NCBI GenBank assembly: GCA_903873295.1
Contig: CAIQNV010000030.1
Span: 1-43,246 of the forward strand
Length of the DNA: 43,246 nucleotides
Source of the DNA: an uncultured Elusimicrobia bacterium
GTDB taxonomy: Bacteria > Elusimicrobiota > Elusimicrobia > Elusimicrobiales > UBA9959
Reading direction: 5' to 3'
How positions within the stretch are numbered: position 1 is the first letter of the stretch; the number at the start of each line of letters is the position of its first letter. The notes under the pieces are model-generated. The model saw only the letters and a program-made list of their open reading frames with translations, had not been told where the DNA came from and did not search any database. Position numbers and translations under genes: made by a program. Shown in pieces: positions 31,084-42,807 of this stretch.

Positions 31084-31332
31084 TCATATTAAACCGCGCA
31101 AAACCTTTATACCGTTATAGTCCAGCCAGTCCAGCGAAAGAGGGCTAATGATAGAGTTTGCCGGAACCTGAACGGTTTTAGCGCCGGGCTTATAGATCCG
31201 GCGAAGTTCCCAGTCGCTGATGAAGACTTTTTTTTTATTTTCCGGAACCTTTTTCACAACAGGCGCCGCCCTCCCCGCTTCGCGGGAGAGGTGCTGAACA
31301 ATAAGATCTTCGACGGCGCCTTTGGTAAACAT
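31084..31332 (-). CDS. Small microcompartment-associated protein with EutT-like motif
   Basis: 82 residues. The N-terminal ~20 residues (GAVEDLIVQHLSREAGRA) form an amphipathic helix like BMC encapsulation peptides and are followed by a short linker. The rest (ISDWELRRIYKPGAKTV, then VPANSIISPLSLDWLDYNGI) resembles the short segment often found at the start of EutT-type and related BMC proteins (pattern LTPSAxDxLxxxxIxI). No cobalamin adenosyltransferase domain follows, so it is a free-standing module. It is last of the BMC genes. Function unknown; a cargo adaptor is possible. Confidence 0.6.
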   Translation of the reverse strand: MFTKGAVEDLIVQHLSREAGRAAPVVKKVPENKKKVFISDWELRRIYKPGAKTVQVPANSIISPLSLDWLDYNGIKVLRGLI

Positions 31333-31344
31333 ATAAGAACCAGA

Positions 31345-31419
31345 CAGCCAGGCTGCATAGCGGCTGGACAGCCTTAAGGCAGACTGCCTTAAAAAAGCTG
31401 CCTGGCGGTCCAGCTGTCC
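31345..31419. repeat. Structured spacer with alternative hairpins
   Basis: A perfect small hairpin (31376-31381 with 31385-31390) sits between GGACAGC (31366-31372) and GCTGTCC (31413-31419). CCAGGC (31349-31354) can instead pair with GCCTGG (31399-31404), which would break that nesting. It lies between the first BMC-H gene and the small downstream gene and may be a processing or attenuation element. Confidence 0.45.
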
Positions 31420-31426
31420 TGCAGTT

Positions 31427-31723
31427 TTAGCTGACCTTCACCGAGATCTTCGCCAGATATTTATCCAGATCGTCCGAGGGGCGCGGGATCACGTGCATCC
31501 CGACGAGCTCACCGGCCTTCTGGGCGGCGGCGGCTCCGGCTTCCACGGCGGCGCGCACAGCGCCGACCTCACCCGAACACAGCGTGGTAACGTAGCCCGA
31601 GCCTATCTTCTCGTAGCCGAGCAGGCGCACTTTGGCGGCCTTGCTCATGGCGTCAGAGGCCTCTATCATGCCTATGAAACCCTTTGTCTCTATCATGCCC
31701 AACGCTTCTTTTGGTTCTGACAT
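31427..31723 (-). CDS. BMC-H shell protein (hexamer, PduA/EutM type) 1
   Basis: 98 residues, one BMC domain: [65 protein letters not shown]. Forms the flat hexameric tiles of the microcompartment facet. Pore residues lie in the KIGSG loop. Strong GGAGC-type ribosome site. About 55-60% similar by eye to the second BMC-H at 36204-36488. Confidence 0.96.
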
Positions 31724-31747
31724 ATTCGCTCCTTAAGTTACCGCAAA

Positions 31748-32743
31748 TTAGTACTGCCCTTTGGCGGCTTCGCCGCCGGAAACTATGGCTATGCTGGCGC
31801 TCGTCCCCAGCCTGTTCGCGCCGGCCTTTATCATCGCCGCGGCCACCTCGGCGTTCTTGATGCCGCCGGAAGCCTTCACGCCCATCTCGGGACCCACGGT
31901 CTCGCGCATCAGGGCGATATCCTCGGGGGTCGCGCCGCCGGAACCGAAGCCGGTAGAGGTCTTCACGAAGTCGGCCTGGGCCTGCTTGGCCATTTTGCAG
32001 GCGCGGATCTTCTCGTCTCTGGTCAAATACGAAGTCTCGAGTATCACCTTCAGGCATTTGCCGCGGGTAGCATCGCGCACGGCCTTTATATCGTCCTGCA
32101 CCATTTGGTCGTTGCCGGATTTAAGCGCGCCGATATTGATGACCATGTCTATCTCGTCGGCGCCGTTGGCTATGGCGTCGCGGGCTTCTATGGCCTTAAC
32201 CGTAGGGGTGGTAGAGCCCAGCGGGAAACCTATGACGGTGCAGACCATCACGCCCGAGCCGCGCAGCAGGCGGGCGGACATCGCAACATAGCCGGGGTTC
32301 ACGCAGACCGAGGCGAAGCGGTATTTACGGGCTTCCTCGCAGAGCTTGCCTATTTCCTCCTGCGTGGCGTTAGCCTTGAGCAGGGTATGGTCTATCATGC
32401 CCGCGATAGACTTGCTGGCCTCGTTGGGATTACAAAAGGTGACGCGGTCTACGCTGGCTTTTACCTGCTGCGCGGTATAGTTGGTCAGCGGGTTGCAGCT
32501 CTGGCAGGAGGAGCTGCAGGTATTTTCCTCCAGGCGGCACTCGCCCTGGCCGGAGCAGGCCTTGGACGGAGAGGCCGGGGGCTTGTTAGTCCCGGCGGGG
32601 TTGACCAGCGGATGCTGGAAAATTTTTCCGCCGGAGCCGATGGAAACGGAATCCCCGAGCGTCTGCCTGGGGTAAGAGGGGTTTTTCTCCTTCAGGATCC
32701 TGGCCACTTCGGCGGCTATTTTCTTTATATCTTCGTCGTTCAT
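31748..32743 (-). CDS. deoC: Deoxyribose-phosphate aldolase with targeting peptide and Cys-rich linker
   Basis: 331 residues, ~100 longer than ordinary DeoC. Residues 1-18 ([17 protein letters not shown]) are an amphipathic encapsulation peptide. A linker to ~100 carries C63, C69, C76, C80 and C83. The aldolase TIM barrel starts at [15 protein letters not shown]; Asp in [10 protein letters not shown], Schiff-base Lys261 in FVKTSTGFG and Lys290 in VKASGGIK are present. Splits 2-deoxyribose-5-phosphate into acetaldehyde and glyceraldehyde-3-phosphate, producing the volatile aldehyde inside the shell. Signature enzyme of SPU-type BMC loci. Overlaps the next BMC-P gene by 4 bases. The Cys cluster could bind metal, an Fe-S cluster, or form disulfides. 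Confidence 0.95.
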
Positions 32744-33033
32744 ATCTTTTCCTTTCCTGTAATGTGGACCGTGTCCACTATCCCGGCGATAACGGTACGC
32801 ACCGGCGCCTTGGGATTCTTTAAAATTTTCCTGGCCGAACCGCCCTCATCCACTATCAGCACGGTGTCGCCGACCCCGGCGCCCTGGTTCCCGTCGAGGG
32901 CAAGGGTAGCCTCTCCTGCCGGTTTATTGCCGTCCATCGGGTCGACGGCTTTCACCAGCAGCATTGTCGCGCCCTTAAGGCCCGGATGCTTGCGGGTAGC
33001 CCACACATTGCCGATAACTTTAGCTATGAACAT
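32740..33033 (-). CDS. BMC-P vertex protein (EutN/CcmL type) 1
   Basis: 97 residues: [45 protein letters not shown]. Forms the pentamers that cap shell vertices. First of two adjacent BMC-P genes, 4 bases apart from the next. Confidence 0.95.
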
Positions 33034-33037
33034 ATAT

Positions 33038-33334
33038 TTAATTAAATTTCTTTCCGTCGATGATACCTACTATCGCGGCGTCAACCGGGGGAGGGACAGC
33101 GCCGACGACCGTCTCCCCCTCCCAGCCTTCAAAGGCCAGAATAGCTTCTCTTGAGGCCACAAAAAAAACCGTCTCCCCGGCTCCGGCGCCCACGGTATCC
33201 CCGGCCACAAGCGGGTCGCCCGTCGGCTTGTCCGTCTCCCAGTCCAGAGGCTGTATCAGGAGCAGGGTCTTAGACTCCATGCCGCAGCATTGGCGTGAGC
33301 AGAAGACCCGTCCTATCACCTTTGCCTGTTTCAT
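33038..33334 (-). CDS. BMC-P vertex protein 2, Cys-rich
   Basis: 98 residues: AKVIGRVFCSRQCCGME at the N-terminus, VGAGAGETVFFVASREA and AIVGIIDG at the C-terminus. EutN/CcmL family. Three cysteines (C12, C16, C17) sit where the paralogues have none or one. Six bases after rpiB. Confidence 0.93.
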   Translation of the reverse strand: MKQAKVIGRVFCSRQCCGMESKTLLLIQPLDWETDKPTGDPLVAGDTVGAGAGETVFFVASREAILAFEGWEGETVVGAVPPPVDAAIVGIIDGKKFN

Positions 33335-33340
33335 TTTATT

Positions 33341-33787
33341 TCAGCAGCAGCGCTGCTCTATCGCCGTTATTTTGTCCAGGCGCTTCTGGTACTTGCCGCC
33401 TTCAAAAGGGGTGCTAAGCCAGACCTTCACCATCTCCTGGAGGGCCAGTTCGCCGTGCGTCTTGCCGCCGAGACACAGCACATTGCAGTCCTCATGGGCC
33501 GCCGCGAAGCGGGCCGAGATAATATCGTAGGCGGCCACCGCCCGTATACCGTGCACTTTATTGGCGGCCAGCGGCATGGCGCCGTTGAACCCGTCCACCA
33601 GCACGGCGCGGTCGAACTCTTTTTTGCGCACGGCCTCGCTGACCAGCAGAGCGATATCAGGGAAGTCGACCGGCTCGGTAGAGTAGCAGCCGAAATCCAT
33701 AACCTCGTGGCCGAGGCCCTGCAGGAACTTCTTCAGCTTTTCTTTCGCTTCAAAGCCCGCGTGGTCGGCGCCTATGACAAGTTTCAT
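33341..33787 (-). CDS. rpiB: RpiB/LacAB-family sugar-phosphate isomerase homologue, altered active site
   Basis: 148 residues. Family fold is clear: VIGADHAGFEAKEKLK (His9), DFGCYSTEPVDFPD, LAANKVHGIRAV, FAAAHEDCNVLCLGGK. In canonical RpiB the catalytic Cys65 lies in CGTGIG, the anion-hole loop. Here that stretch is VDGFNGA, so Cys65 is Asp and the glycine loop is changed. Mycobacterial RpiB has a Glu in place of the Cys but keeps GSGNG. It may still isomerise ribose/ribulose-5-phosphate or may act on another pentose phosphate. RpiB homologues are standard members of SPU BMC loci. Confidence 0.85.
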   Translation of the reverse strand: MKLVIGADHAGFEAKEKLKKFLQGLGHEVMDFGCYSTEPVDFPDIALLVSEAVRKKEFDRAVLVDGFNGAMPLAANKVHGIRAVAAYDIISARFAAAHEDCNVLCLGGKTHGELALQEMVKVWLSTPFEGGKYQKRLDKITAIEQRCC

Positions 33788-33796
33788 GAAAAGCTC

Positions 33797-34345
33797 CTAT
33801 ATCGCAGCGCCGATATGCTCGTGCGCGTTAGGTATCACTATGCGGCTCACTACGGCGTCCTCGCCTATGGCCATTACGCCCGCCGTTACGGCGGTGCGCA
33901 CCGCGCCCGGCTCACCCACCACCGTGAAGTAGCCCTTTCCGCCTATGCCTTTACCCGTGTTCACTTCAGCGACGTGTACGAAGGCCGCCTTGGCGGCCGC
34001 GTCGGCGGCGAACAGCGCGGGAAGCGCTTCTTTTGTTTCCACTATGCCCACGGCCTCTATCTTGGCGGCCTTCACTTTTTTATTAAGGGCGGCCAGCGCG
34101 CCGGAATGCACGTTGCGTATTATGTGGCTGGCGACGAGAACATTGCCGGCTATCTCCCTGCCTTTGGCCAGGGAGGATTCCACCTCGCCCAGGGGCCCCG
34201 AGATCACGATGATGTATTTACCCTTGGAGATCGCCTGGTACACCTCGGGCTTTACGCCCGCGGCCTTGCACATGGCGTCCAGGGTTTCTATCCCCCTGGC
34301 TATCGACGAGAGTTCAACAAGTCCGAGCGAGATATTTGCCTGCAT
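33797..34345 (-). CDS. BMC-T shell protein (tandem BMC domain, trimer) 1
   Basis: 182 residues, two BMC domains: first SLGLVELSSIARGIETLDAM with pore loop ISKGKYIIVISG, second EAVGIVETKEALPALFAAD with GKGYFTVVGE and RIVIPNAHEH. Pseudohexameric trimer of the shell. AAGGAG seven bases before the ATG at 34345; an upstream frame to 34531 overlaps the aldehyde dehydrogenase and is discarded. The pore loop has no cysteine, unlike the second BMC-T. Confidence 0.93.
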   Translation of the reverse strand: MQANISLGLVELSSIARGIETLDAMCKAAGVKPEVYQAISKGKYIIVISGPLGEVESSLAKGREIAGNVLVASHIIRNVHSGALAALNKKVKAAKIEAVGIVETKEALPALFAADAAAKAAFVHVAEVNTGKGIGGKGYFTVVGEPGAVRTAVTAGVMAIGEDAVVSRIVIPNAHEHIGAAI

Positions 34346-34365
34346 ATAAATTCTCCTTAACTGCG

Positions 34366-35772
34366 CTACGCTATCCTGAGGTCTCCGACCACGCTGCACT
34401 GCAGGGGCCGCACGAAATGGCTGGTCTTGGTAATGCCGTCGCCGGTGGGCGTGCCAATGGACATGGAGGCGTAGCCTTCTCCCATGCCGAGGCCGTGCAG
34501 CGTGCAGCCGTTCTTTACAAAAATGGAGCACGCCATACGGCGGCCCATCTTGGTCATATTTTTTATGTTCGTGGAGTACATGCCGGCCGAATGATGGTTC
34601 TCTCCTTCCGCAAAGCGCGCCAGTTCTATGGCTGAGTCTATATCCTTGCAGAAAGTGACCGGCAGCACCGGCATAAGCTGCTCGCTGACCACAAAAGGGT
34701 GGTCGTTGGGCACTTCGGCCCAGAGCACACGGATCTCATCCGAAAGGTTCAGGCCTATGGACCTGGCTATCACCGACGGGTTCTTGCCGATAAAGTCGCG
34801 GTTTACCTTAGGTTCGCGGCCCGGCGTCAATATGGCCAGCTTTGAAAGCTGGTCCATCTGCGCCCCGCTGAGCTCATAAGCGCGCTGGTCGGAACGCATG
34901 GCTTCCAGGAAGCGCGCGCGCGCGGCCTCGACCACAATAACCTCTTTTTCCGCTATACACAGCACATTATTATCGAAGCCGCAGCCGTAAATTATTTCCC
35001 TGGCGCAATCCGGAAAAATTGCGGTTTCGTCCACCACTACCGGCGGGTTGCCGGGACCGGCGGCTATGGTTTTGCAGGGCTTGCCCGCGGTCATCGCAAC
35101 TTTTACTATGGCCGGGCCGCCGGTGACGATATTCATATGCGTGTCCGGATGGCACAGCAACTGCCTGGTGGCTTCCTGTGTGGGTTTGGCAATAGTAGTC
35201 AGCAGGTTGGCCGGGCCGCCCGCGGCCACTATGGCTTTATCAAGCACGCGCACCGCGTCGGCCACGCACCCTTTGGCGGCCGGGTGCGGCGAGAACACGA
35301 CCGCGTTCCCGGCGGATAATATCCCTATCGCATTGCTGAGAATGGTGGCCACGGCGTTAGTGGAAGGGGTTATGGCCGCCACCACTCCGAAAGGCGCGTA
35401 TTCAATCAGGGTAAGCCCTTTATCCCCGGTATAAGACACGGCGCGCAGGTCTTCAACTCCGGGAGTTCCGTCGATGCAGACCATGTTCTTAATGACCTTA
35501 TCTTCCACGCGGCCCATGCCGGTCTCGGCTACGGCCATTTCCGCCCAGCGCCTGGCATTCGCGCGGGAAACCCCGCGTATCGCTTCTATTATTTTTTCTC
35601 GCGCCGCCAGACCCAGCTCCTGGAAGCCCGGCTGCGCCCTGGACGCGGCGCTGACAGCCTCATCCACGGTGTCGAACACCGGTCCGCCCGACGGCGCGGC
35701 GGCAGGCCGGGCGTCGAGGTTCTTAACGACCTCGGCCACTATTTTCCGCAAATCTTCTTCGCTGAGGGACAT
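34366..35772 (-). CDS. CoA-acylating aldehyde dehydrogenase (PduP/EutE type)
   Basis: 468 residues. Encapsulation peptide at 1-20 (SEEDLRKIVAEVVKNLD), linker, then the acylating aldehyde dehydrogenase domain: EYAPFGVVAAITPSTN, GPGNPPVVVDET, catalytic Cys272 in FDNNVLCIAEKE, NHHSAGMYS and GGGYASM-like MGEGYASMSIGTPTG. Oxidises acetaldehyde from DeoC to acetyl-CoA with NAD+ and CoA inside the shell. Between BMC-P and BMC-T genes. Confidence 0.96.
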   Translation of the reverse strand: MSLSEEDLRKIVAEVVKNLDARPAAAPSGGPVFDTVDEAVSAASRAQPGFQELGLAAREKIIEAIRGVSRANARRWAEMAVAETGMGRVEDKVIKNMVCIDGTPGVEDLRAVSYTGDKGLTLIEYAPFGVVAAITPSTNAVATILSNAIGILSAGNAVVFSPHPAAKGCVADAVRVLDKAIVAAGGPANLLTTIAKPTQEATRQLLCHPDTHMNIVTGGPAIVKVAMTAGKPCKTIAAGPGNPPVVVDETAIFPDCAREIIYGCGFDNNVLCIAEKEVIVVEAARARFLEAMRSDQRAYELSGAQMDQLSKLAILTPGREPKVNRDFIGKNPSVIARSIGLNLSDEIRVLWAEVPNDHPFVVSEQLMPVLPVTFCKDIDSAIELARFAEGENHHSAGMYSTNIKNMTKMGRRMACSIFVKNGCTLHGLGMGEGYASMSIGTPTGDGITKTSHFVRPLQCSVVGDLRIA

Positions 35773-35784
35773 GTGAGCTCCGCT

Positions 35785-36090
35785 CTACAGCATCTTGTTG
35801 ACGGATTTCTTGAACACCACTTTGCCTTCTTTCTCTATGGTGTCCACTATCGCGAAAATCGTGCAGTCTACCGGCGTGTTCTCGGTCTTCGAGGTCTGGC
35901 GCGCGCTGGAGCCCTGCACCAGCAGGACCAGTTCGCCCGTACCCGCGCCGACGGCGTCTATGCCGACCAGGGTGTTGCCCCGCGGCTTGTCGTCAAGGCC
36001 CACCGGCTGCACCATCAGCAGCTTGGTGCCCACAAGTTTATCGTCCTTGCGGGTACAGACCACGTTACCCACTACTCGTGCAAAAAGCAT
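35785..36090 (-). CDS. BMC-P vertex protein 3
   Basis: 101 residues: FARVVGNVVCTRKDDKLVG, VGAGTGELVLLVQGSSAR, IFAIVDTI, with a basic C-terminal tail. Ribosome site GGAGG seven bases before ATG. Third EutN/CcmL pentamer paralogue of the locus. Confidence 0.95.
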   Translation of the reverse strand: MLFARVVGNVVCTRKDDKLVGTKLLMVQPVGLDDKPRGNTLVGIDAVGAGTGELVLLVQGSSARQTSKTENTPVDCTIFAIVDTIEKEGKVVFKKSVNKML

Positions 36091-36112
36091 AAAACCTCCG
36101 AAAACGGCAGGC

Positions 36113-36202
36113 GAGAGTCGGGAGTCATGGGTCGAGAGTCCAGTGGAACGGGGAAACTTTAATAATTCCCCCGACTCCCGACTCCCGACCCTCGACTCTT
36201 GG
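36113..36202. repeat. Intergenic inverted repeat with (GTCGGGAGTC)-type units
   Basis: The left part contains GAGAGTCGGGAGTC and GTCGAGAGTCC; the right part contains their complements (GACTCCCGACTCCCGACCC, TCGACTCTTGG). An inner GGGGAA/TTCCCC hairpin encloses an AT loop. The element fills the gap between the second BMC-H gene and the third BMC-P gene inside an otherwise tight operon. Confidence 0.75.
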
Positions 36203-36203
36203 A

Positions 36204-36488
36204 CTATTTCTTCTTGGCGTCGCTTATCGGCAGTTTGCCTTCAAGGTCGCCGTGGGGCTGCGGGATGACATGCACGCTCACCAGTTCGCCCACTTTCTGG
36301 GCGGCAGCGGCGCCGGCATCGCAGGCGGCACGGCAGGCGGCCACTTCGCCCCTGAAAAGAATGGTCACGAGGCCCGAGCCGATCTTTTCGTAGCCGACGA
36401 TCTTTACGTTGGCGGCTTTCACGGCGGCGTCAGCCGCTTCCACGCAGGCCACGAGGCCCTTTGTTTCTATCATTCCAAGTGCGTCCAT
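36204..36488 (-). CDS. BMC-H shell protein (hexamer) 2
   Basis: 94 residues, one BMC domain: [51 protein letters not shown]. Hexamer-forming facet protein, paralogue of the one at 31427-31723. Good GGAGG ribosome site. Confidence 0.96.
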
Positions 36489-36528
36489 TATATCCTCCGG
36501 TAACTATTTAAGCTAAAGCAAAATCGCA

Positions 36529-37161
36529 TCAGACTATGAACGCGGCATCGCCGTTCTTCATGCCCGCGGCGTTGGCTTCTTCCACGTCGAGATGAAGCTC
36601 CAGCGCGAACTGGTCCGAGACGCGGCACAGCACGCGCTCGTAGATGGCTTCCCGTTCGGTGCCGCGGCCGCAGAGCACCCGCACTTCCTGGCCGTCTTTC
36701 ACCTTATATTGCGCGGCTTCCGTCGTCAGGAAATGTATATGGCGTTTAGACATGATAACGCCTTTATTAAGGACTACTGTCCCCCTGGGCCCTACCAGCT
36801 TTATGCCCGGAGTGTTGTCCAGCTTGCCGGAATCTCGGATCGGAGGCTCTACGCCCAGCTTGCGCGCGTCGGCGGCCGAGACTTCCACCTGGCTGTATTT
36901 TCTGTAGGGGCCGATCATCCGCACGTCTTTAATGGAACCCTTCGGGCCCTCCAGCGTGAACAGCTCCTTGCAGGCGTACTGACCGGGCTGCTTTACGGGC
37001 TTAAGCTGTGTGTCGTCGCACTCTGCGCCGAACAGGGTTTTGAAATCCTCCTTGGTCAGATGTATGTGGCGGTTGGAAATGCCCACCGGCACCGGCATAG
37101 AAGACCGCTCCTCGCGGAGCTTTATGTCTTCCACCATCTCTTTAACAATTTTTTCGTCCAT
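36529..37161 (-). CDS. pduL: PduL-type phosphotransacylase
   Basis: 210 residues. An N-terminal amphipathic helix (EKIVKEMVEDIKLRE) is likely an encapsulation peptide. PduL zinc motifs VGISNRHIHLT and MSKRHIHFLT are in the two beta-barrels, with GPYRKYSQVEVS between. Converts acetyl-CoA and phosphate to acetyl-phosphate, recycling CoA inside the shell. 22 bases from tpiA. Confidence 0.95.
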   Translation of the reverse strand: MDEKIVKEMVEDIKLREERSSMPVPVGISNRHIHLTKEDFKTLFGAECDDTQLKPVKQPGQYACKELFTLEGPKGSIKDVRMIGPYRKYSQVEVSAADARKLGVEPPIRDSGKLDNTPGIKLVGPRGTVVLNKGVIMSKRHIHFLTTEAAQYKVKDGQEVRVLCGRGTEREAIYERVLCRVSDQFALELHLDVEEANAAGMKNGDAAFIV

Positions 37162-37183
37162 TTTGTTGTATCCCTTTTGATGT

Positions 37184-37963
37184 TTATCTTGAAAGCACGG
37201 CCTGAAAATGTATCACGCGCAGGAACTTGTCGGCCTTGAGGCTTTCCCCGCCTACCAGCGCGCCGTCTATGTCGGGCTGTGACATAAGCTCGTCCACGTT
37301 ATCGGCCTTCACCGAGCCGCCGTAAAGCACGCGCACGGACTCGGCGTAAGGCCGGCCGTAAACGCGTTCCATCTGCTTGCGCACGAAAACGTGGGCGTCC
37401 TGCGCCTGGTCGGGAGTGGCGGTCTTGCCGGTGCCGATAGCCCAGACGGGCTCGTAGGCTATTACGACTTTGGAGGCCTCGGCGGCGGTGATGCCGGCGA
37501 AGGCGCCGTTAAGCTGGGTTTCGAGGACGCGGTAGGTTCTCTGGCTCTCGCGCTCTTCAAGGGTTTCGCCTATGCACAGCACGGGCACGAGGTTCGCCTT
37601 TATGGCGGCCTTGACTTTTTTATTCACTATCTCGTCGGTCTCGAGGAAGATCTTGCGGCGCTCGGAGTGGCCGATGATGGCGTGGGTGCAGCCCGCGTCT
37701 ATTATCTGCGAAGGGGACACGGCCCCGGTAAAAGCGCCTTTTTCTTCCCAGGCGACATCCTGCGAAGAAAGGAATATTTTTGAGCCGGCCAGCGCGGCCT
37801 TCGCGGCGTGCAGGCAGGTAAATCCGGGGGCGAGGAGCACTTCATGCTTAAGGTCGGGATCGAGCCCTTTCTTTATGGCGGCGGCCAGGTCGGCGGCCTC
37901 CTTGGAAGTAAGATGCATTTTCCAGTTGCCGGCGATCATGGGAATACGTTTAGTAGAAGCCAT
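37184..37963 (-). CDS. tpiA: Triose-phosphate isomerase
   Basis: 259 residues. GNWKMH (Lys12-type), catalytic His in AIIGHSERR, catalytic Glu in AYEPVWAIGTG, phosphate loop YGGSVKADN. Interconverts glyceraldehyde-3-phosphate and DHAP. Its place in the BMC operon, upstream of pduL, suggests handling of the triose made by DeoC. No encapsulation peptide, so probably cytosolic. May also be the cell's only TpiA. Confidence 0.96.
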   Translation of the reverse strand: MASTKRIPMIAGNWKMHLTSKEAADLAAAIKKGLDPDLKHEVLLAPGFTCLHAAKAALAGSKIFLSSQDVAWEEKGAFTGAVSPSQIIDAGCTHAIIGHSERRKIFLETDEIVNKKVKAAIKANLVPVLCIGETLEERESQRTYRVLETQLNGAFAGITAAEASKVVIAYEPVWAIGTGKTATPDQAQDAHVFVRKQMERVYGRPYAESVRVLYGGSVKADNVDELMSQPDIDGALVGGESLKADKFLRVIHFQAVLSR

Positions 37964-37989
37964 TGGGTCTCCTTATTTAGTTAATATTT

Positions 37990-37995
37990 ATTATA
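37990..37995 (-). promoter_or_regulatory. Candidate -10 box upstream of tpiA
   Basis: A perfect TATAAT on the minus strand lies in a very AT-rich stretch 26 bases before the tpiA ATG. No convincing -35 hexamer. It would allow a second transcript for the structural genes of the locus. Confidence 0.35.
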
Positions 37996-38081
37996 TAAAT
38001 TTTAGCGTTCGTGAGTATCGCTTGCCTTGGGAGAGGCGGCGGAGGCCTGCATCCACGCTCCAGGGCCGGGGTCTATAATGG

Positions 38082-38122
38082 CGGGACTATGCGGGGGATA
38101 AATGAGAACCCGCCCCGTCCCG
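38082..38122. other. Hairpin in the tpiA / BMC-T spacer
   Basis: CGGGAC (38082-38087) and GCGGG (38091-38095) pair with CCCGC (38109-38113) and GTCCCG (38117-38122). There is no T run on the minus strand, so it is not a classic terminator. The 190-base gap is the largest in the BMC locus. Confidence 0.45.
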
Positions 38123-38152
38123 ATTAACGTCCGAGGAATATGCCTAAAAGCG

Positions 38153-38701
38153 TTAAATAATCTCCCGAAGGAGTTCCTGGCGGGGTTGGGGGATGACAAC
38201 TTTTTCAACCAAGAGGCCTTTTTTGGCTACGACTGCGGCGCCGGCGGCTACGGCGGTCTCCGCGGCGGCGACAGAGCCGGTCAGAGTGACGAAGGCTTTG
38301 CCTCCGAGGGCCATGGCAAGACGGATCTCGAGGAGTTTTACAGGGGCGGCTTTGACGGCGGCGTCGGCGGCCTCTACCAGCGCGGAAACGGAGAAGGCTT
38401 CTATTATACCGAGGGATTCAAGACCTTCAACTACCGTGGTTCCGGCTATGGCGGGAAAAACATCGGGGTGGATATTCGGGACGACAAAACTATCCACAAG
38501 AGCGTGCGCCGCTTTCGCCGAACCGGCTTCCACGGCGGCGTTCACGTCGCCCACGTCCCCGGCAAGAAGGATGATATATTTGCCCGGGCAAATTGAGCGC
38601 GATAACAGCAGTTTAATATTCGCCGTTTTAAGCATGGCGTCGGCCGCTTCCATGCCCTTGGCAATACTTGAAAGTTCCACCCCGCCTATTGCGTTAAGCA
38701 T
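38153..38701 (-). CDS. BMC-T shell protein 2, PduT-like with Fe-S cysteine
   Basis: 182 residues, two BMC domains: GGVELSSIAKGMEAADAM and LGIIEAFSVSALVEAADAA. The first-domain pore loop is SRSICPGKY with Cys38, the position and context of the cysteine that holds a [4Fe-4S] cluster at the PduT pore. The ATG at 38701 overlaps the end of the pduS-like gene by 8 bases; an upstream frame to 38788 is discarded. Probably passes electrons between the lumen and the cytosol together with the PduS-like protein. Confidence 0.92.
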   Translation of the reverse strand: MLNAIGGVELSSIAKGMEAADAMLKTANIKLLLSRSICPGKYIILLAGDVGDVNAAVEAGSAKAAHALVDSFVVPNIHPDVFPAIAGTTVVEGLESLGIIEAFSVSALVEAADAAVKAAPVKLLEIRLAMALGGKAFVTLTGSVAAAETAVAAGAAVVAKKGLLVEKVVIPQPRQELLREII

Positions 38702-40082
38702 AAATCTCCACGTACTTCGGGTTAACTTTACCGACGGTGCCGGAGATGCTCGCGTGCACCGGGCAGCCCAGCTTGTCGGCGGGAACATCCCCCACCACCG
38801 CGCCTTTCTCCACCTTCTGCCCCTCTTTCACCGACGGGACGCAGGGCGCGCCGATATGCTGGCTCATTAAAATTTTTACGCGGGAAGGCTTATACGAAAC
38901 CTCCGTCCAGGGGGCATCCTTGTTGTAATCTTCCAGGCCCAGCCGCCGGACAAGTCTGGACACAGGCACCTTGCGGAAATCCCTCACGGGATGGACCTCC
39001 GGAGCGCGCCCGGTATTTATGGCTGAATTCTTAAAGCCCATTTTTAGCTCGCGCAGGTCGGACTTAGCGGCAACGCAAGCCTCGCGGGGGTTCAGCCCCT
39101 CGGGGCAGGAATAAAGGCTGCACAGCGAACATTCGCAGCACAGCAGGCCATATTGACTGTGCAGTTTGCGTCTGTTCGCGACAACATTATCGTTGAATTG
39201 TGTCGCTTCGCTCCACCCGGGCCCGCCGGAGAAAAGCATGGTGCGCATCACGCGGTGCGGCTGCACATTGTGCCCCAGCAAATAGCGCGGGCAGAGCTCG
39301 GTGCAGAAAGAGCACTGGTCGCAAACCGAACGGCCTATGCGGGAAAATACGGGGCGGCTCTGCGCCTTCCTGACGATAAGCGGATGCGTCTTCGGCAAAA
39401 CGATTATGCCCGCTGAAGCCTTAACGACCGGGGCGTCGAAATCAGTCATGACCTTGCCCATCATAGGTCCGCCGTCTATGAAAGCGGGGTCTTTTATGGT
39501 GAAGCCGCCGCACAGGTCAACAGCCTCGCGCCAGGTTATACCGACGGGAACCTTGAAAGTCGCCGGCTTTTTTACGGCGCCGTTTACGGTGATAAACGTT
39601 TCGGTGACGGGCCGGCCGGGAAAGGCGGCGTTATAAAGGGTTTCGACATTACAGACCACGCAGCCGACTTCAAGAGGAATGCCTCCGGGCGGGACGATGC
39701 GGCCGGTGGCCTCGTAGACCAGGCACTGCTCGTCGCCGGCGGGGTAATAGTCGCCCAGCTTCAGCACGGAGATGTTTTTGCGGCCCTTCGCCATTTCCTC
39801 CAGGCGCGGAATAAGCCTCTCGTGCTTCTTCTTTATGCCGAGGATCCCCCGCTTCGCGCCCACGGCCCGCATAAGCAGCTCAAGCCCGTCGAAAACCTTT
39901 TCCGGGAAATATTCCAGTATCTTCTGGTCCTTCTTGAGCAGCGGTTCGCACTCGGCCGCGTTCGCAAGCGCGTACTCGGCCTTCCCCTGCGCTTTCACAT
40001 AGGAAGGAAAACCCGCGCCGCCGGCCCCTACTACTCCGGCGCTGCGCAGGTTTTCGCTGAATTCGGCTGAAAAGTCGGACAT
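38694..40082 (-). CDS. PduS-like RnfC-family flavo/iron-sulfur protein
   Basis: 462 residues. GVVGAGGAGFPSYVK (NADH/FMN site), RnfC-type core with GDEQCLVYEATGR and GGIPLEVGCVVCNVET, SLBB segment, then two [4Fe-4S] motifs: C254/C257/C260/C264 (CDQCSFCTELCP) and C315/C318/C321/C326. C-terminal barrel-sandwich segment (PCVPSVKEGQKVEKGAVVGDV). In Pdu compartments PduS reduces cobalamin. Here no B12 enzyme is visible, so a role in NADH reoxidation with the Fe-S BMC-T is inferred. Confidence 0.93.
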   Translation of the reverse strand: MSDFSAEFSENLRSAGVVGAGGAGFPSYVKAQGKAEYALANAAECEPLLKKDQKILEYFPEKVFDGLELLMRAVGAKRGILGIKKKHERLIPRLEEMAKGRKNISVLKLGDYYPAGDEQCLVYEATGRIVPPGGIPLEVGCVVCNVETLYNAAFPGRPVTETFITVNGAVKKPATFKVPVGITWREAVDLCGGFTIKDPAFIDGGPMMGKVMTDFDAPVVKASAGIIVLPKTHPLIVRKAQSRPVFSRIGRSVCDQCSFCTELCPRYLLGHNVQPHRVMRTMLFSGGPGWSEATQFNDNVVANRRKLHSQYGLLCCECSLCSLYSCPEGLNPREACVAAKSDLRELKMGFKNSAINTGRAPEVHPVRDFRKVPVSRLVRRLGLEDYNKDAPWTEVSYKPSRVKILMSQHIGAPCVPSVKEGQKVEKGAVVGDVPADKLGCPVHASISGTVGKVNPKYVEIYA

Positions 40083-40097
40083 TAATGACTTAGGCGG

Positions 40098-41327
40098 CTA
40101 CTTGACCGCGACCAGGCGCTTCTTGACGGCGGTGGCGAGGCGCTTTATTCCCTCTTCAATATCTTCGGGGGTGGGATAGGAGAAATTCAGGCGCATGGTG
40201 TTTTTGCCGGAACCGTCGCAATGGAAAGCGGAGCCTATCACATAGGCCACATTTTCTTTAAGCGCGTCGGCGAACATCTCGTCGGCGCTCATACCTTCGG
40301 GCAGGCGCACCCACAGGAAAAGGCCGCCCTCGGGTTTTGTCCAGGTGACGCCTTCGGGCATATATTTTTTAAGCGCGGCCACCATGGTGTCTTTCTTCAG
40401 CTTGTAGGTCTTCTTGATGACCTCGATGTGCGTTTCGAAGTAGCCGGTGCGCAGGAAATCCGCCGCGATAAGCTGGTTAAGGCTCGACGTGCAGAGGTCG
40501 AGAGACTGCTTCAGGATCTCCATCTTCTTGATGATCTGGGGATGGGCGAGGATGACGCCGAGGCGCAGGCCGGGCGCGAAGGTTTTCGAGAAGGTGAACA
40601 GCGAAATGATGTTATTGGTCTTGCGGGTCTGCTGGTCCATGCGGTAAAGCATGTCGGGCGCTTTGCCTTCGAAGCGTATCTGGCGGTAGGGAGAGTCCTC
40701 TATTATGGCCACGTCGTATTTCTCGGAAAGCTCTATCACTTTTTTGCGCTTCTTCGCGGAAAGCGTCACGCCGCTGGGATTCTGGAAGTCGGGCACCAGG
40801 TAGACGAATTTGTAATGTTCGTCCTGGCCTCTGAGCCAGATAAGCTTTTCTTCAAGCTCGTCGGTGCTTATCCCGTCGTCTTCCAGCTTGACCCCGATGA
40901 AGTCCGCGCCGTAGGACTTGAACACCTGCAGCCCGCCCATGTAGCTGGGCATTTCCACCAGCACGGGGTCGGAAGCGTCTATGAACAGGCGCCCCACCAT
41001 GTCCAGCGCCTGCTGGGAGGCCGTGGTAATTATCAGGTTCTCCGGCTTCGCGTCTATGCCCTCGTGCTTCTTGAGGAACTTGATGAACTCCTCTTTCAAC
41101 TCGGGCAGGCCGTCGGTAGGCCCGTACTGCAGCGCCACCTTGCCCTTTTTGGCCATTATTTCTTTCACCGAGTCAGCCACAAAATCATAAGGAAAATGCT
41201 CGGGGTCGGGCAGGCCGCCCGCGAAAGAGATAATGCCGGGCTTATTGGTTATTTTAAGGAGTTCACGGATCACGGAAGCTTTGGTGCGCCGGGGGGCGGT
41301 GGCGATATTCTTTGTGATGTCGATCAT
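40098..41327 (-). CDS. PLP-dependent class I/II aminotransferase (2-aminoadipate type)
   Basis: 409 residues, fold type I. ISFAGGLPDPEHFP, ITTASQQALDMVGRLF, YLVPDFQNPSG, Schiff-base Lys in FTFSKTFAPGLRLG, RLNFSYPTPEDI. Resembles LysN/ArAT-like broad-specificity aminotransferases. It is the first gene of the BMC operon run, 15 bases before pduS, with a good GGAGG ribosome site and its own promoter. No aminotransferase step belongs to the deoxyribose route, so its link to the compartment is unclear. Confidence 0.9.
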   Translation of the reverse strand: MIDITKNIATAPRRTKASVIRELLKITNKPGIISFAGGLPDPEHFPYDFVADSVKEIMAKKGKVALQYGPTDGLPELKEEFIKFLKKHEGIDAKPENLIITTASQQALDMVGRLFIDASDPVLVEMPSYMGGLQVFKSYGADFIGVKLEDDGISTDELEEKLIWLRGQDEHYKFVYLVPDFQNPSGVTLSAKKRKKVIELSEKYDVAIIEDSPYRQIRFEGKAPDMLYRMDQQTRKTNNIISLFTFSKTFAPGLRLGVILAHPQIIKKMEILKQSLDLCTSSLNQLIAADFLRTGYFETHIEVIKKTYKLKKDTMVAALKKYMPEGVTWTKPEGGLFLWVRLPEGMSADEMFADALKENVAYVIGSAFHCDGSGKNTMRLNFSYPTPEDIEEGIKRLATAVKKRLVAVK

Positions 41328-41413: not shown

Positions 41414-42691
41414 TCACTCCTGGCCGGGCCCCGCTTTGGAGGCGGCGGCGAAATAATCCAGATTTTCTTTATAGTAGTCCTTTTTGCCCGGCTCGGTTTC
41501 AGCCGCATATTTTTTCGCGTAATAAACCATGGCCTTCGGATACGTGGAATCTTTTAGTTCCGCCAGGTCCTCCGGGAAAGGGCGCCCGGTGGAGGAGCAC
41601 GCTTTTTCAAGCGACTTTAAATGCTGGCTCAACACCTCTATGCCCATCTGTTTGGAATTGTCCCTCACAAAGGAGGCCGCCTCCAGTATGGCCAGCGCGC
41701 CGCTCGTTTTAAGAGAATTAAGCACTTCCGGGTCAAGCTCATAACTGGCCGAGTTTACGTCGGCCACGGCCAGACAGTCCAGCGCGAGCGGGTAATTTTT
41801 CTCCTTCAGGGCTATCGAGCCGACGAAAAGCAGCGCGTCCGCGCTGAAAGGCGGCCAGCGGGTTTTATAAAAATCAGACAGGAACCCGGCGTACTCGGCC
41901 TTTTCCTTCTGGAGCCTGGCCAGCGAAACCCCGTTCCGCACATAATTCTTCACTTCTCCGGAAGCGTAGGCGAAGATCTTCGAGTCGGCCTCCCGGTTCT
42001 TCTGTATTGTCTCGGCCTTCTCAAGGCTGAGGTAGCCGCCCAGCTGCTCCTCGTAATATTTGCGTATCTTCTCTTTGTAGCGGTCCATGTCCAGCGACAG
42101 CGTGAAATAGCTGGCGAAAACAGTTTCCGTGTAAAGGTCGGTGTAGGCGCCGCGGATAAAGCTCTTCAGCAGGGCGGGGTCGGCTTTCATGCGCTCGTGC
42201 ACGTAGATATCCTCGGTAAGGTAAGCCTCGTATTCAAACTCGAGCGGATTGGCGCCGGCGTCCTGCCGATATTCCGGGTAGAGGTAGCACTGTGCGGCAT
42301 GCACCAGCTCGTGGAGGTAGATCGGGTTAGAGTACTTCACCAGCTCCGCGCGGACTTTTTTATTGCTCCACAGAACCTCCACCACCCGGCCGTCCTTAAA
42401 GCCCTTGGCCTCGAACAACTTCAGAATAAATCTGGAATTAAAATAGACCGCGTTTTTTTCCGGGTCGAACCAGGCGAAGCAGGGAGAAGCGTCGCGCCGG
42501 ACCAGCACGCGCAGATCGGAATAGCTTTTTATCTTTTCAAGCCTGCCGTAAAGCTCCCTGCCCGCGGGCACGGAGCGAAGCTGCGCCTCGAACTCTTTTT
42601 TCAACTTAGAGCTCAGCCGGGCGTCATACTGGTAAGCTCCGGCAAAAGCCGGCAGCAGCAGTACGGCCAGGAACGCGGGCAGACGCTTCAT
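41414..42691 (-). CDS. Exported HExxH metallopeptidase-like protein
   Basis: 425 residues with a Sec signal peptide (MKRLPAFLAVLLLPAFAGA). The zinc-site motif is IYLHELVHAAQCY (H127, E128, H131), followed ~20 residues later by LEFEYEAYLTED, which could supply the third ligand as in gluzincins. The rest is helical, with no other recognised domain. The ATG at 42691 is the one giving a signal peptide; a frame to 42799 is discarded. Family not identified; it could be a peptidase or a non-catalytic relative. Confidence 0.72.
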   Translation of the reverse strand: MKRLPAFLAVLLLPAFAGAYQYDARLSSKLKKEFEAQLRSVPAGRELYGRLEKIKSYSDLRVLVRRDASPCFAWFDPEKNAVYFNSRFILKLFEAKGFKDGRVVEVLWSNKKVRAELVKYSNPIYLHELVHAAQCYLYPEYRQDAGANPLEFEYEAYLTEDIYVHERMKADPALLKSFIRGAYTDLYTETVFASYFTLSLDMDRYKEKIRKYYEEQLGGYLSLEKAETIQKNREADSKIFAYASGEVKNYVRNGVSLARLQKEKAEYAGFLSDFYKTRWPPFSADALLFVGSIALKEKNYPLALDCLAVADVNSASYELDPEVLNSLKTSGALAILEAASFVRDNSKQMGIEVLSQHLKSLEKACSSTGRPFPEDLAELKDSTYPKAMVYYAKKYAAETEPGKKDYYKENLDYFAAASKAGPGQE

Positions 42692-42780
42692 ATGGAATAT
42701 TATAGCCCAAATCCCGGGATAATCCGTAGCAGGATCTGTCCGCCTGACGGGCATGGCCCCGCCGCGGCACGAACGCATGT

Positions 42781-42807
42781 TTGACAAAGGCCGCGGCAAT
42801 GTATAAT
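42781..42807 (+). promoter_or_regulatory. Consensus sigma-70-type promoter of the YtxH-like gene
   Basis: A perfect TTGACA (42781-42786) and a perfect TATAAT (42802-42807) are separated by 15 bases, slightly short. A strong AGGAGG ribosome site precedes the ATG at 42846. Expected to be a highly expressed housekeeping promoter. Confidence 0.75.

Follow-up and report, generated by a model that had tools for sequence, protein, structure and literature searches.

Why should a microcompartment for deoxyribose-5-phosphate (dR5P) contain a homologue of ribose-5-phosphate isomerase B (RpiB)? Such an isomerase makes no obvious chemical sense in a deoxyribose compartment and is puzzling there because dR5P lacks a 2-OH group. 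The question is raised by a cluster of 15 genes, all on the minus strand, at positions 31084-41327 of a DNA stretch of 43,246 nucleotides from an uncultured Elusimicrobia bacterium (assembly GCA_903873295.1, contig CAIQNV010000030.1); this whole stretch is called the window in the following. Every gene named in the original prediction, which was made from the sequence alone, was found in the cluster, at the place and on the strand given. The locus is a sugar-phosphate-utilising (SPU) type bacterial microcompartment (BMC), a kind published in 2014: a DeoC-type aldolase (pfam01791) and an RpiB-type protein (pfam02502) are encoded in one cluster with BMC shell genes, the combination by which the SPU passages of PMC8217296 define the type. 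As a further SPU trait, an acylating aldehyde dehydrogenase (AldDH) and PduL are present and the cluster has no alcohol dehydrogenase match. The predicted SPU type is thus supported by the Pfam content and by the match to the 2014 gene set.

The RpiB-like protein (33341-33787) belongs to the RpiB fold family (PF02502, LacAB_rpiB, 149.8 bits; TIGR00689, 134.8 versus 88.3) and passes the broader model NF004051 (145 versus 135), but does not reach the rpiB equivalog TIGR01120 (134.1 versus 138.65). In an alignment to the characterised RpiB of Protein Data Bank (PDB) entry 3he8, LVDGFNGAMPLAANK of the window takes the place of VICGTGLGISIAANK in the enzyme. Within the loop, CGTGLG in the enzyme and DGFNGA in the window, the catalytic Cys is replaced by Asp65 (codon 33593-33595) and Thr67 by Phe. 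For characterised RpiBs, the mechanistic parts of PMC3755991, PMC4783025 and PMC3212906 describe the Cys as the C2 base (C69S and C69A are inactive), Thr67/71 as moving a proton between O1 and O2, His96-102 as opening the ring, Asp8 as contacting O3, and His9/11 with Arg residues as binding the phosphate. Neither version of the C2 base, the Cys or the Glu of the Mycobacterium tuberculosis type, is present in our protein. The ring-opening His98 and also Asp8, His9 and Arg136 are kept and position 132 is Lys or Arg, so that the protein resembles 3he8 in fold family and in phosphate-binding and ring-opening residues.

The same exchange recurs in every linked RpiB homologue of the loci read; linked stands for a position beside DeoC or shell genes and, in the wider search below, for a match to DeoC, a shell protein, AldDH or PduL in the sequence fetched, which extended about 1.5 kb to either side. 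In a table of 52 linked rows (the window, L031-L080 and L089; L numbers denote the loci or contigs compared, G numbers the genomes) residue 65 is Asp in 52/52 and at residue 67 a single Ala stands against 51 Phe, with His98, Asp8, His9 and Arg136 invariant; the 28 unlinked rows of this table have Cys (27) or Gly (1) at residue 65 and, without exception, Thr or Ser at residue 67. L083, DeoC-linked and of the Asp type, was left out of this table and returns below as L239; L001-L030, whose genomes belong to the same group, were left out of the RpiB counts. A wider search covered 343 genomes of Planctomycetota (the phylum of L089, to judge by its title), 347 of Acidobacteriota (that of L083, Terriglobia) and 400 of Chloroflexota (that of L099, Dehalococcoidia); the best 30 loci per phylum (90 of many more) were taken, together with 20 lower-ranked loci chosen by hand from Planctomycetota and Acidobacteriota. 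Among the 60 best loci of the latter two phyla (L209-L268) all 47 linked RpiBs carry Asp, the unlinked ones being 12 Asp and one Cys. The lower-ranked loci (L269-L288) include a single linked RpiB, with Asp, and 18 unlinked with Cys and one with Gly, and the 30 best Chloroflexota loci (L289-L318) gave Asp in 25/25 linked and in one unlinked copy, with Cys in the other four. Over all sets, L089 and L083 being counted once, the 65 unlinked loci comprise 50 Cys, 2 Gly and 13 Asp. What is new here is the Asp-for-Cys exchange in the RpiB of all 124 linked loci, which belong to Elusimicrobiota, Planctomycetota, Acidobacteriota and Chloroflexota. Because the rows are not independent of one another and the choice of top-scoring loci is biased towards the Asp type, these counts describe an association within the loci read and not a census. 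In the Elusimicrobiota stretches BMC-type copies have Asp (9/9) and other copies Cys (28/28); 50 of 101 genomes encode a BMC-type RpiB, 49 of these 50 a second RpiB, and this second copy has Cys in all 20 that were read and in the genome of the window. The protein, listed simply as an RpiB homologue in the original prediction, can no longer pass for an ordinary RpiB, and until it is assayed it is better not taken for a ribose-5-phosphate isomerase.

The twelve unlinked Asp-type RpiBs of the Acidobacteriota set are L240-L243, L245-L247, L252, L259, L261, L262 and L266; an aminotransferase-like open reading frame (ORF) match lies near three of them (L243, L245 and L246). A change from Asn to Glu or Asp after His98 was dropped as a mark of SPU loci, since the Cys-type copies of Elusimicrobiota have Asp there too. 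The best trees set the Elusimicrobiota clade of Asp-type RpiBs apart, yet a tree with all of them in one clade survives the approximately unbiased test (p 0.282 and 0.277), and a single origin was therefore not adopted: there may have been one or more. Viral contigs were discarded as a source, as the three RpiB-like motifs seen in 17 loci all read CGTGIG.

How would such an RpiB reach the lumen? By eye, N-termini resembling encapsulation peptides (EPs) are present on DeoC, AldDH, PduL and an 82-residue protein, the product of the last gene of the cluster (31084-31332), and on neither RpiB nor TpiA. The 82-residue protein has no Pfam match. Its family shares an EP-like helix with the consensus MLTKGAVEDLIMxHL; in the AlphaFold model this helix (residues 4-16) has a predicted local distance difference test score (pLDDT) of 62-65 and the small C-terminal alpha/beta domain one of 76-88. 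A fold search with the model gave no match at 1e-3, and the best hit of a sequence search against the PDB had an E value of 1.4. The domain does match the N-terminal stretch of 51 RpiBs from Planctomycetota and Acidobacteriota (hhalign, 95.8% probability, E 7.2e-9; reversed-profile control, 0.04%), the 51-row alignment being uncleaned, with one Cys-type row (L237) and two rows (L231 and L237) unlike the domain. In a single-sequence test, a weak one, the family profile found the L089 fusion at E 0.012 among 10334 ORFs. The hhalign match, taken with the missing EP on the RpiB of the window, suggests a carrier domain that forms part of RpiB in those phyla and a protein of its own in Elusimicrobiota. 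Whether the 82-residue protein carries RpiB into the shell appears to us evenly balanced.

What the Asp-type RpiB might do there can be approached through its substrate contacts. Those to C1 and C2 are changed and those to O3, O4 and the phosphate are kept, and dR5P differs from ribose-5-phosphate solely at C2 and cannot be isomerised; this favours a dR5P-specific, ring-opening protein. We tentatively propose that the Asp-type RpiB opens the ring of dR5P for DeoC, and regard this as possible, though doubtful. A precedent is YhcH, described in the relevant part of PMC8141875 as an anomerase that supplies the N-acetylneuraminate aldolase NanA with open sugar; YhcH belongs to another family (DUF386), and the activity was shown for YhcH and is proposed here for Asp-type RpiB. 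More doubtful still is the full generalisation that the SPU 'RpiB' of at least four phyla is a non-isomerase Cys-to-Asp protein that gives DeoC the open 2-deoxy sugar and is carried by an EP domain, either fused or in the form of the 82-residue protein.

Several points weigh against this proposal. Although dR5P is 99.8% furanose, its ring opening is argued, in the passage of PMC5975929 concerned, to be too fast to limit deoxyribose-phosphate aldolase (DERA). Asp65 could itself act as the base, and this possibility and that of a dead scaffold are serious rivals. The carrier idea draws its support from the fusion argument. The wider loci were taken as top matches of an Asp-type query, which may have overlooked Cys-type RpiBs beside DeoC, and 13 Asp-type RpiBs (12 of L209-L268 and one of L289-L318) have neither DeoC nor a shell gene in the fetched stretch. 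The phosphopentomutase-like protein of the genome stays under the family cut-offs (222.1 bits, cut-off 256), and in an Atribacterota isolate with DeoC in a BMC cluster compartments were not visible (PMC7736352).

The first of the two serious rivals, which we consider unlikely, is that the Asp-type RpiB has kept aldose-ketose isomerase activity, with Asp as its base, and handles ribose-5-phosphate or another sugar phosphate besides dR5P. A carboxylate at this place has a parallel in the RpiB of M. tuberculosis, for which PMC3755991 and PMC4783025 give Glu75 in place of Cys; the linked rows of Planctomycetota, Acidobacteriota and Chloroflexota retain most of the glycine-rich loop and have Asn after the ring-opening His; and the SPU account of Sutter 2021 (PMC8217296) assigns the isomerisation of ribose-5-phosphate to the RpiB-type protein. 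However, the proton-moving Thr/Ser67 has given way to Ala, Phe, Val, Met or Ile in every linked row but two, the C69S variant of Leishmania donovani RpiB is inactive, the known acetaldehyde-yielding reaction of DeoC starts from dR5P, which is not isomerisable, and the genome has its Cys-type RpiB besides. The second rival, to which we likewise give a low probability, is a catalytically dead protein that serves as a scaffold or as a substrate-binding or sensing part of the enzyme core. This would fit the absence of the catalytic Cys, and of the Thr hydroxyl in almost every row; it would also fit the EP-bearing domain, fused or separate, which suggests a role in core assembly, and the lack of a BMC-type RpiB in relatives without shell genes beside DeoC. 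A pure scaffold would nevertheless have no need of the invariant Asp8, His9, ring-opening His98 and Arg136.

DeoC (31748-32743) consists of an EP-like helix, a Cys-rich linker and the aldolase domain, and scores well above the deoC equivalog cut-off (TIGR00126, 291.4 bits versus 117.3). K261 and K290, which we take to be the catalytic lysines, are invariant in 25 sequences. For comparison, the Schiff-base lysine of DERA is Lys167 in the mechanistic part of PMC5975929. The genome further encodes a pyrimidine/thymidine phosphorylase (NF004490, 490.9 bits), adjoined on one contig by a purine nucleoside phosphorylase (NF006054, 331.4 bits), the phosphopentomutase-like protein and the acetate kinase AckA, and this set fits a route from nucleosides through deoxyribose-1-phosphate and dR5P to DeoC. 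The deoxyribose-5-phosphate route of the original prediction thus gains support from the genome search, and the dR5P most likely stems from DNA-derived nucleosides. It is improbable that DeoC mainly cleaves another aldol: DERA enzymes do take other aldehydes, as stated in the part of PMC8403123 concerned, and the papers listed in our literature search included no assay of an SPU locus, but the equivalog score and conserved lysines of DeoC and the nucleoside phosphorylases and phosphopentomutase-like protein of the genome speak for dR5P. AldDH (34366-35772; NF011927, 563.6 bits, cut-off 403) has an EP-like N-terminal helix by eye, and the motif N[NQ]VLC[IT]AEK is found in 45/46 of its homologues; PduL (36529-37161) is a phosphotransacylase with 234.5 bits to PF06130 (PTAC).

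In the predicted model of DeoC the N-terminal helix (residues 3-19) has a pLDDT of 76-79, and the Cys-rich linker covers about residues 20-110. C80, C83 and C104 of this linker are invariant in 25 Elusimicrobiota DeoCs. Among 68 DeoCs from the Planctomycetota, Acidobacteriota and Chloroflexota loci (L209-L318), a pattern of four Cys, for example CGDCTGTCAGRC, occurs in 31; another 28 lack it but contain two or more Cys, four contain fewer and five are too short. A metal site in the linker is possible; since residues 21-111 have a pLDDT below 50, the model neither shows nor excludes one. A search with DeoC in 15 selected genomes gave a match in 11. A shell locus is present in G057, G058 and G093 and split over contig ends in G095; the G057 and G058 loci are broken by contig ends ahead of RpiB and were for this reason missed in the RpiB-based listing. 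The other seven have no shell gene in the neighbourhood of DeoC, which was the scope of this comparison. Their blocks are aminotransferase-TpiA-PduL-DeoC (G029 and G036), aminotransferase-TpiA-DeoC (G043), TpiA-PduL-DeoC (G046, at a contig end), TpiA-DeoC (G059 and G067) and DeoC alone (G048). Subsets of aminotransferase, TpiA, PduL and DeoC, with a DeoC that lacks the targeting extension and has no shell genes beside it, lie together in L118, L140, L141, L143, L144 and L145. In all seven neighbourhoods the similarity to DeoC of the window begins at residue 95-112, which indicates that EP and linker are missing from DeoCs without nearby shell genes. A clean history of shell loss with retained enzymes was set aside for G029, as its DeoC clusters in the tree with those of G036 and G046 and not with its own genus; loss, an ancestral state or exchange are all compatible.

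The triose-phosphate isomerase (TIM) TpiA (37184-37963; PF00121, 310 bits), which lacks an EP-like extension, was originally described as built into the operon and as taking the other DeoC product into glycolysis. A reading as an added pathway copy was not supported: the genome, 89.9% complete, has a single TIM match, that of the cluster, so an extra copy for the second DeoC product was rejected and TpiA is best read as a housekeeping enzyme. PF00121 matched in 31 of 32 genomes of the genus, exactly once in 29 and in two pieces in G005 and G031; in G005 the pieces are adjacent (G005:C29:5071-5747), as if frameshifted, which may be real or an assembly error. The gap before TpiA (37964-38152, 189 bases) is the largest within the cluster, and it would be plausible for the only TIM to have a promoter of its own here; a consensus scan found none in it. 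The base of triose-phosphate isomerase is a carboxylate, and this counts for the weakest rival, that the Asp-type RpiB acts on a shorter lumen substrate, for instance as a TIM that removes glyceraldehyde-3-phosphate. Such a role is very improbable, as the conserved contacts to phosphate and O4 suit a C5 phosphate, even if TpiA has no EP-like extension and C. immitis RpiB is suspected, in the part of PMC3212906 concerned, to take shorter substrates.

The aminotransferase at the head of the operon (40098-41327; class I/II, pyridoxal phosphate-dependent; PF00155, Aminotran_1_2, 139 bits) had been noted as having no obvious role. It adjoins TpiA in L118, L140 and L141, which show no shell gene beside the pair, and in L069 it lies on the other strand, beyond the gene of the 82-residue protein; on these grounds a role as a compartment enzyme was dropped. 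Since the aminotransferase-TpiA pair occurs in relatives without adjoining shell genes, the aminotransferase is probably an old neighbour of TpiA and not part of the compartment.

With respect to redox balance, a Pfam scan found no match to alcohol dehydrogenase families among the 15 cluster ORFs and five neighbours. The absence that the original prediction had pointed out therefore stands at the level of the cluster; as a special feature it does not, having been known for SPU loci since 2014 (PMC4207490). A BMC-targeted alcohol dehydrogenase elsewhere in the genome was considered and rejected for the Fe-ADH family, whose two matches carry no EP-like N-terminal extension by eye; Zn-type alcohol dehydrogenases were not searched. 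The PduS-like flavin and Fe-S protein (38694-40082), related to RnfC, contains the domains Complex1_51K, SLBB, RnfC_N and Fer4_17, and its CxxCxxCxxxC motif is found in 27/28 homologues. The adjoining PduT-like BMC-T (38153-38704) has two BMC domains and a pore Cys in SICPGKY, seen in 26/28 homologues, the other two sequences ending before that position; its score to the PduT equivalog TIGR02526 is 134.9 bits, under the cut-off of 250.3. In assigning these names we presume the PduS protein and the PduT pore Cys of propanediol compartments as models. The PduS-like domain set and the Cys in the BMC-T pore are shared with those compartments, whereas the PduT-family score under the cut-off and the lack of a match to a B12 enzyme in the cluster set our locus apart. 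The two proteins are, as originally suggested, candidates for the electron exit, and the conserved pore Cys supports this.

Taken as a whole, the compartment would work as follows. In the cytosol, nucleoside phosphorylases and the phosphopentomutase-like enzyme would yield dR5P, which would enter the shell. The 82-residue protein, with its helix and the domain that is part of RpiB in other phyla, would deliver the Asp-type RpiB, and this would bind dR5P and open its ring for DeoC, itself brought in by the N-terminal helix. DeoC would produce acetaldehyde and glyceraldehyde-3-phosphate. AldDH would convert the acetaldehyde to acetyl-CoA and NADH, PduL would form acetyl phosphate and release CoA, and cytosolic AckA would gain ATP from the acetyl phosphate. 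As the cluster encodes no alcohol dehydrogenase, the PduS-like protein is the probable site of NADH re-oxidation, and electrons may leave through the Cys-pored BMC-T. Glyceraldehyde-3-phosphate would exit the shell and reach the sole TIM of the cell. We are fairly confident, judging from gene content, of an Elusimicrobiota SPU microcompartment for dR5P as such, and we think the explanation comprising compartment and carrier, the ring-opening step excluded, is probably correct.

Much of this agrees with known SPU loci. The sections of Axen 2014 (PMC4207490) on these loci describe DeoC, RpiB, AldDH and mostly PduL, with alcohol dehydrogenase absent, all of which our locus shares with the loci of Axen 2014 and Sutter 2021, and an Atribacteria SPU locus that also carries PduS and TIM, as ours does. 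In its survey part, Sutter 2021 (PMC8217296) counts more than 280 SPU loci in 26 phyla, places SPU among the most prevalent microcompartment types and names the RpiB-type protein as one of two enzymes common to SPU subtypes. Measured against those parts of both papers, the Asp variant of RpiB, the 82-residue protein linked to it, a TpiA that is the sole TIM match of its genome and an aminotransferase-TpiA pair found also without adjoining shell genes are the differences here. A literature search, conducted without supplements and subscription papers, gave no report of the Cys-to-Asp change among the papers listed, and of these papers Axen 2014 and Sutter 2021 alone treat RpiB in microcompartments.

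The genes are transcribed in the order aminotransferase, PduS-like protein, BMC-T with pore Cys, TpiA, PduL, BMC-H (36204-36488; PF00936, 99.8 bits), BMC-P (35785-36090; PF03319, 107.9 bits), AldDH, BMC-T without pore Cys (33797-34348; two BMC domains, with AISKGK, a motif found in homologues), RpiB-like protein, two BMC-P (33038-33334, 74.5 bits, and 32740-33033, 85.7 bits; both PF03319), DeoC, BMC-H (31427-31723; PF00936, 96.5 bits) and the 82-residue protein. Above Pfam cut-offs, the BMC domain was found in four ORFs (two single-domain BMC-H and two double-domain BMC-T) and EutN_CcmL in three, which confirms the predicted set of two BMC-H, three BMC-P and two BMC-T with DeoC, AldDH and PduL. 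All six BMC-domain matches of the genome (89.9% complete) lie inside the cluster. In 50/50 Elusimicrobiota contigs (L031-L080, some labelled just 'bacterium') at least one shell gene stands beside the RpiB homologue, and the gene order is mostly that of the window, with swaps in L060, L077 and L079 and many contigs broken at their ends; recurrence of much of this order indicates that the cluster is not due to chance. The consensus scan gave three promoter-like sites against 4.5 in shuffles, that is, no excess, and 21 terminator-like sites against 13.8 (standard deviation 3.6), most of them antisense to the genes. Following a tetratricopeptide repeat protein, a beta-N-acetylglucosaminidase (PF07555, 28645-29739) is encoded immediately downstream of the cluster, and upstream a 461-residue ORF (41414-42799) without Pfam match; the former keeps its place in many relatives, the latter in many Elusimicrobiota contigs.

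In four phyla a catalytic residue changes together with the presence of DeoC and shell genes, and this turns the puzzle of an isomerase in a deoxyribose compartment into a bench question on one small protein. It also gives warning that the homology-based naming of these proteins as RpiB may be wrong. Should the proposed function prove true, a protein organelle that pairs an aldolase with a ring-opener would represent a metabolosome core of a new kind.

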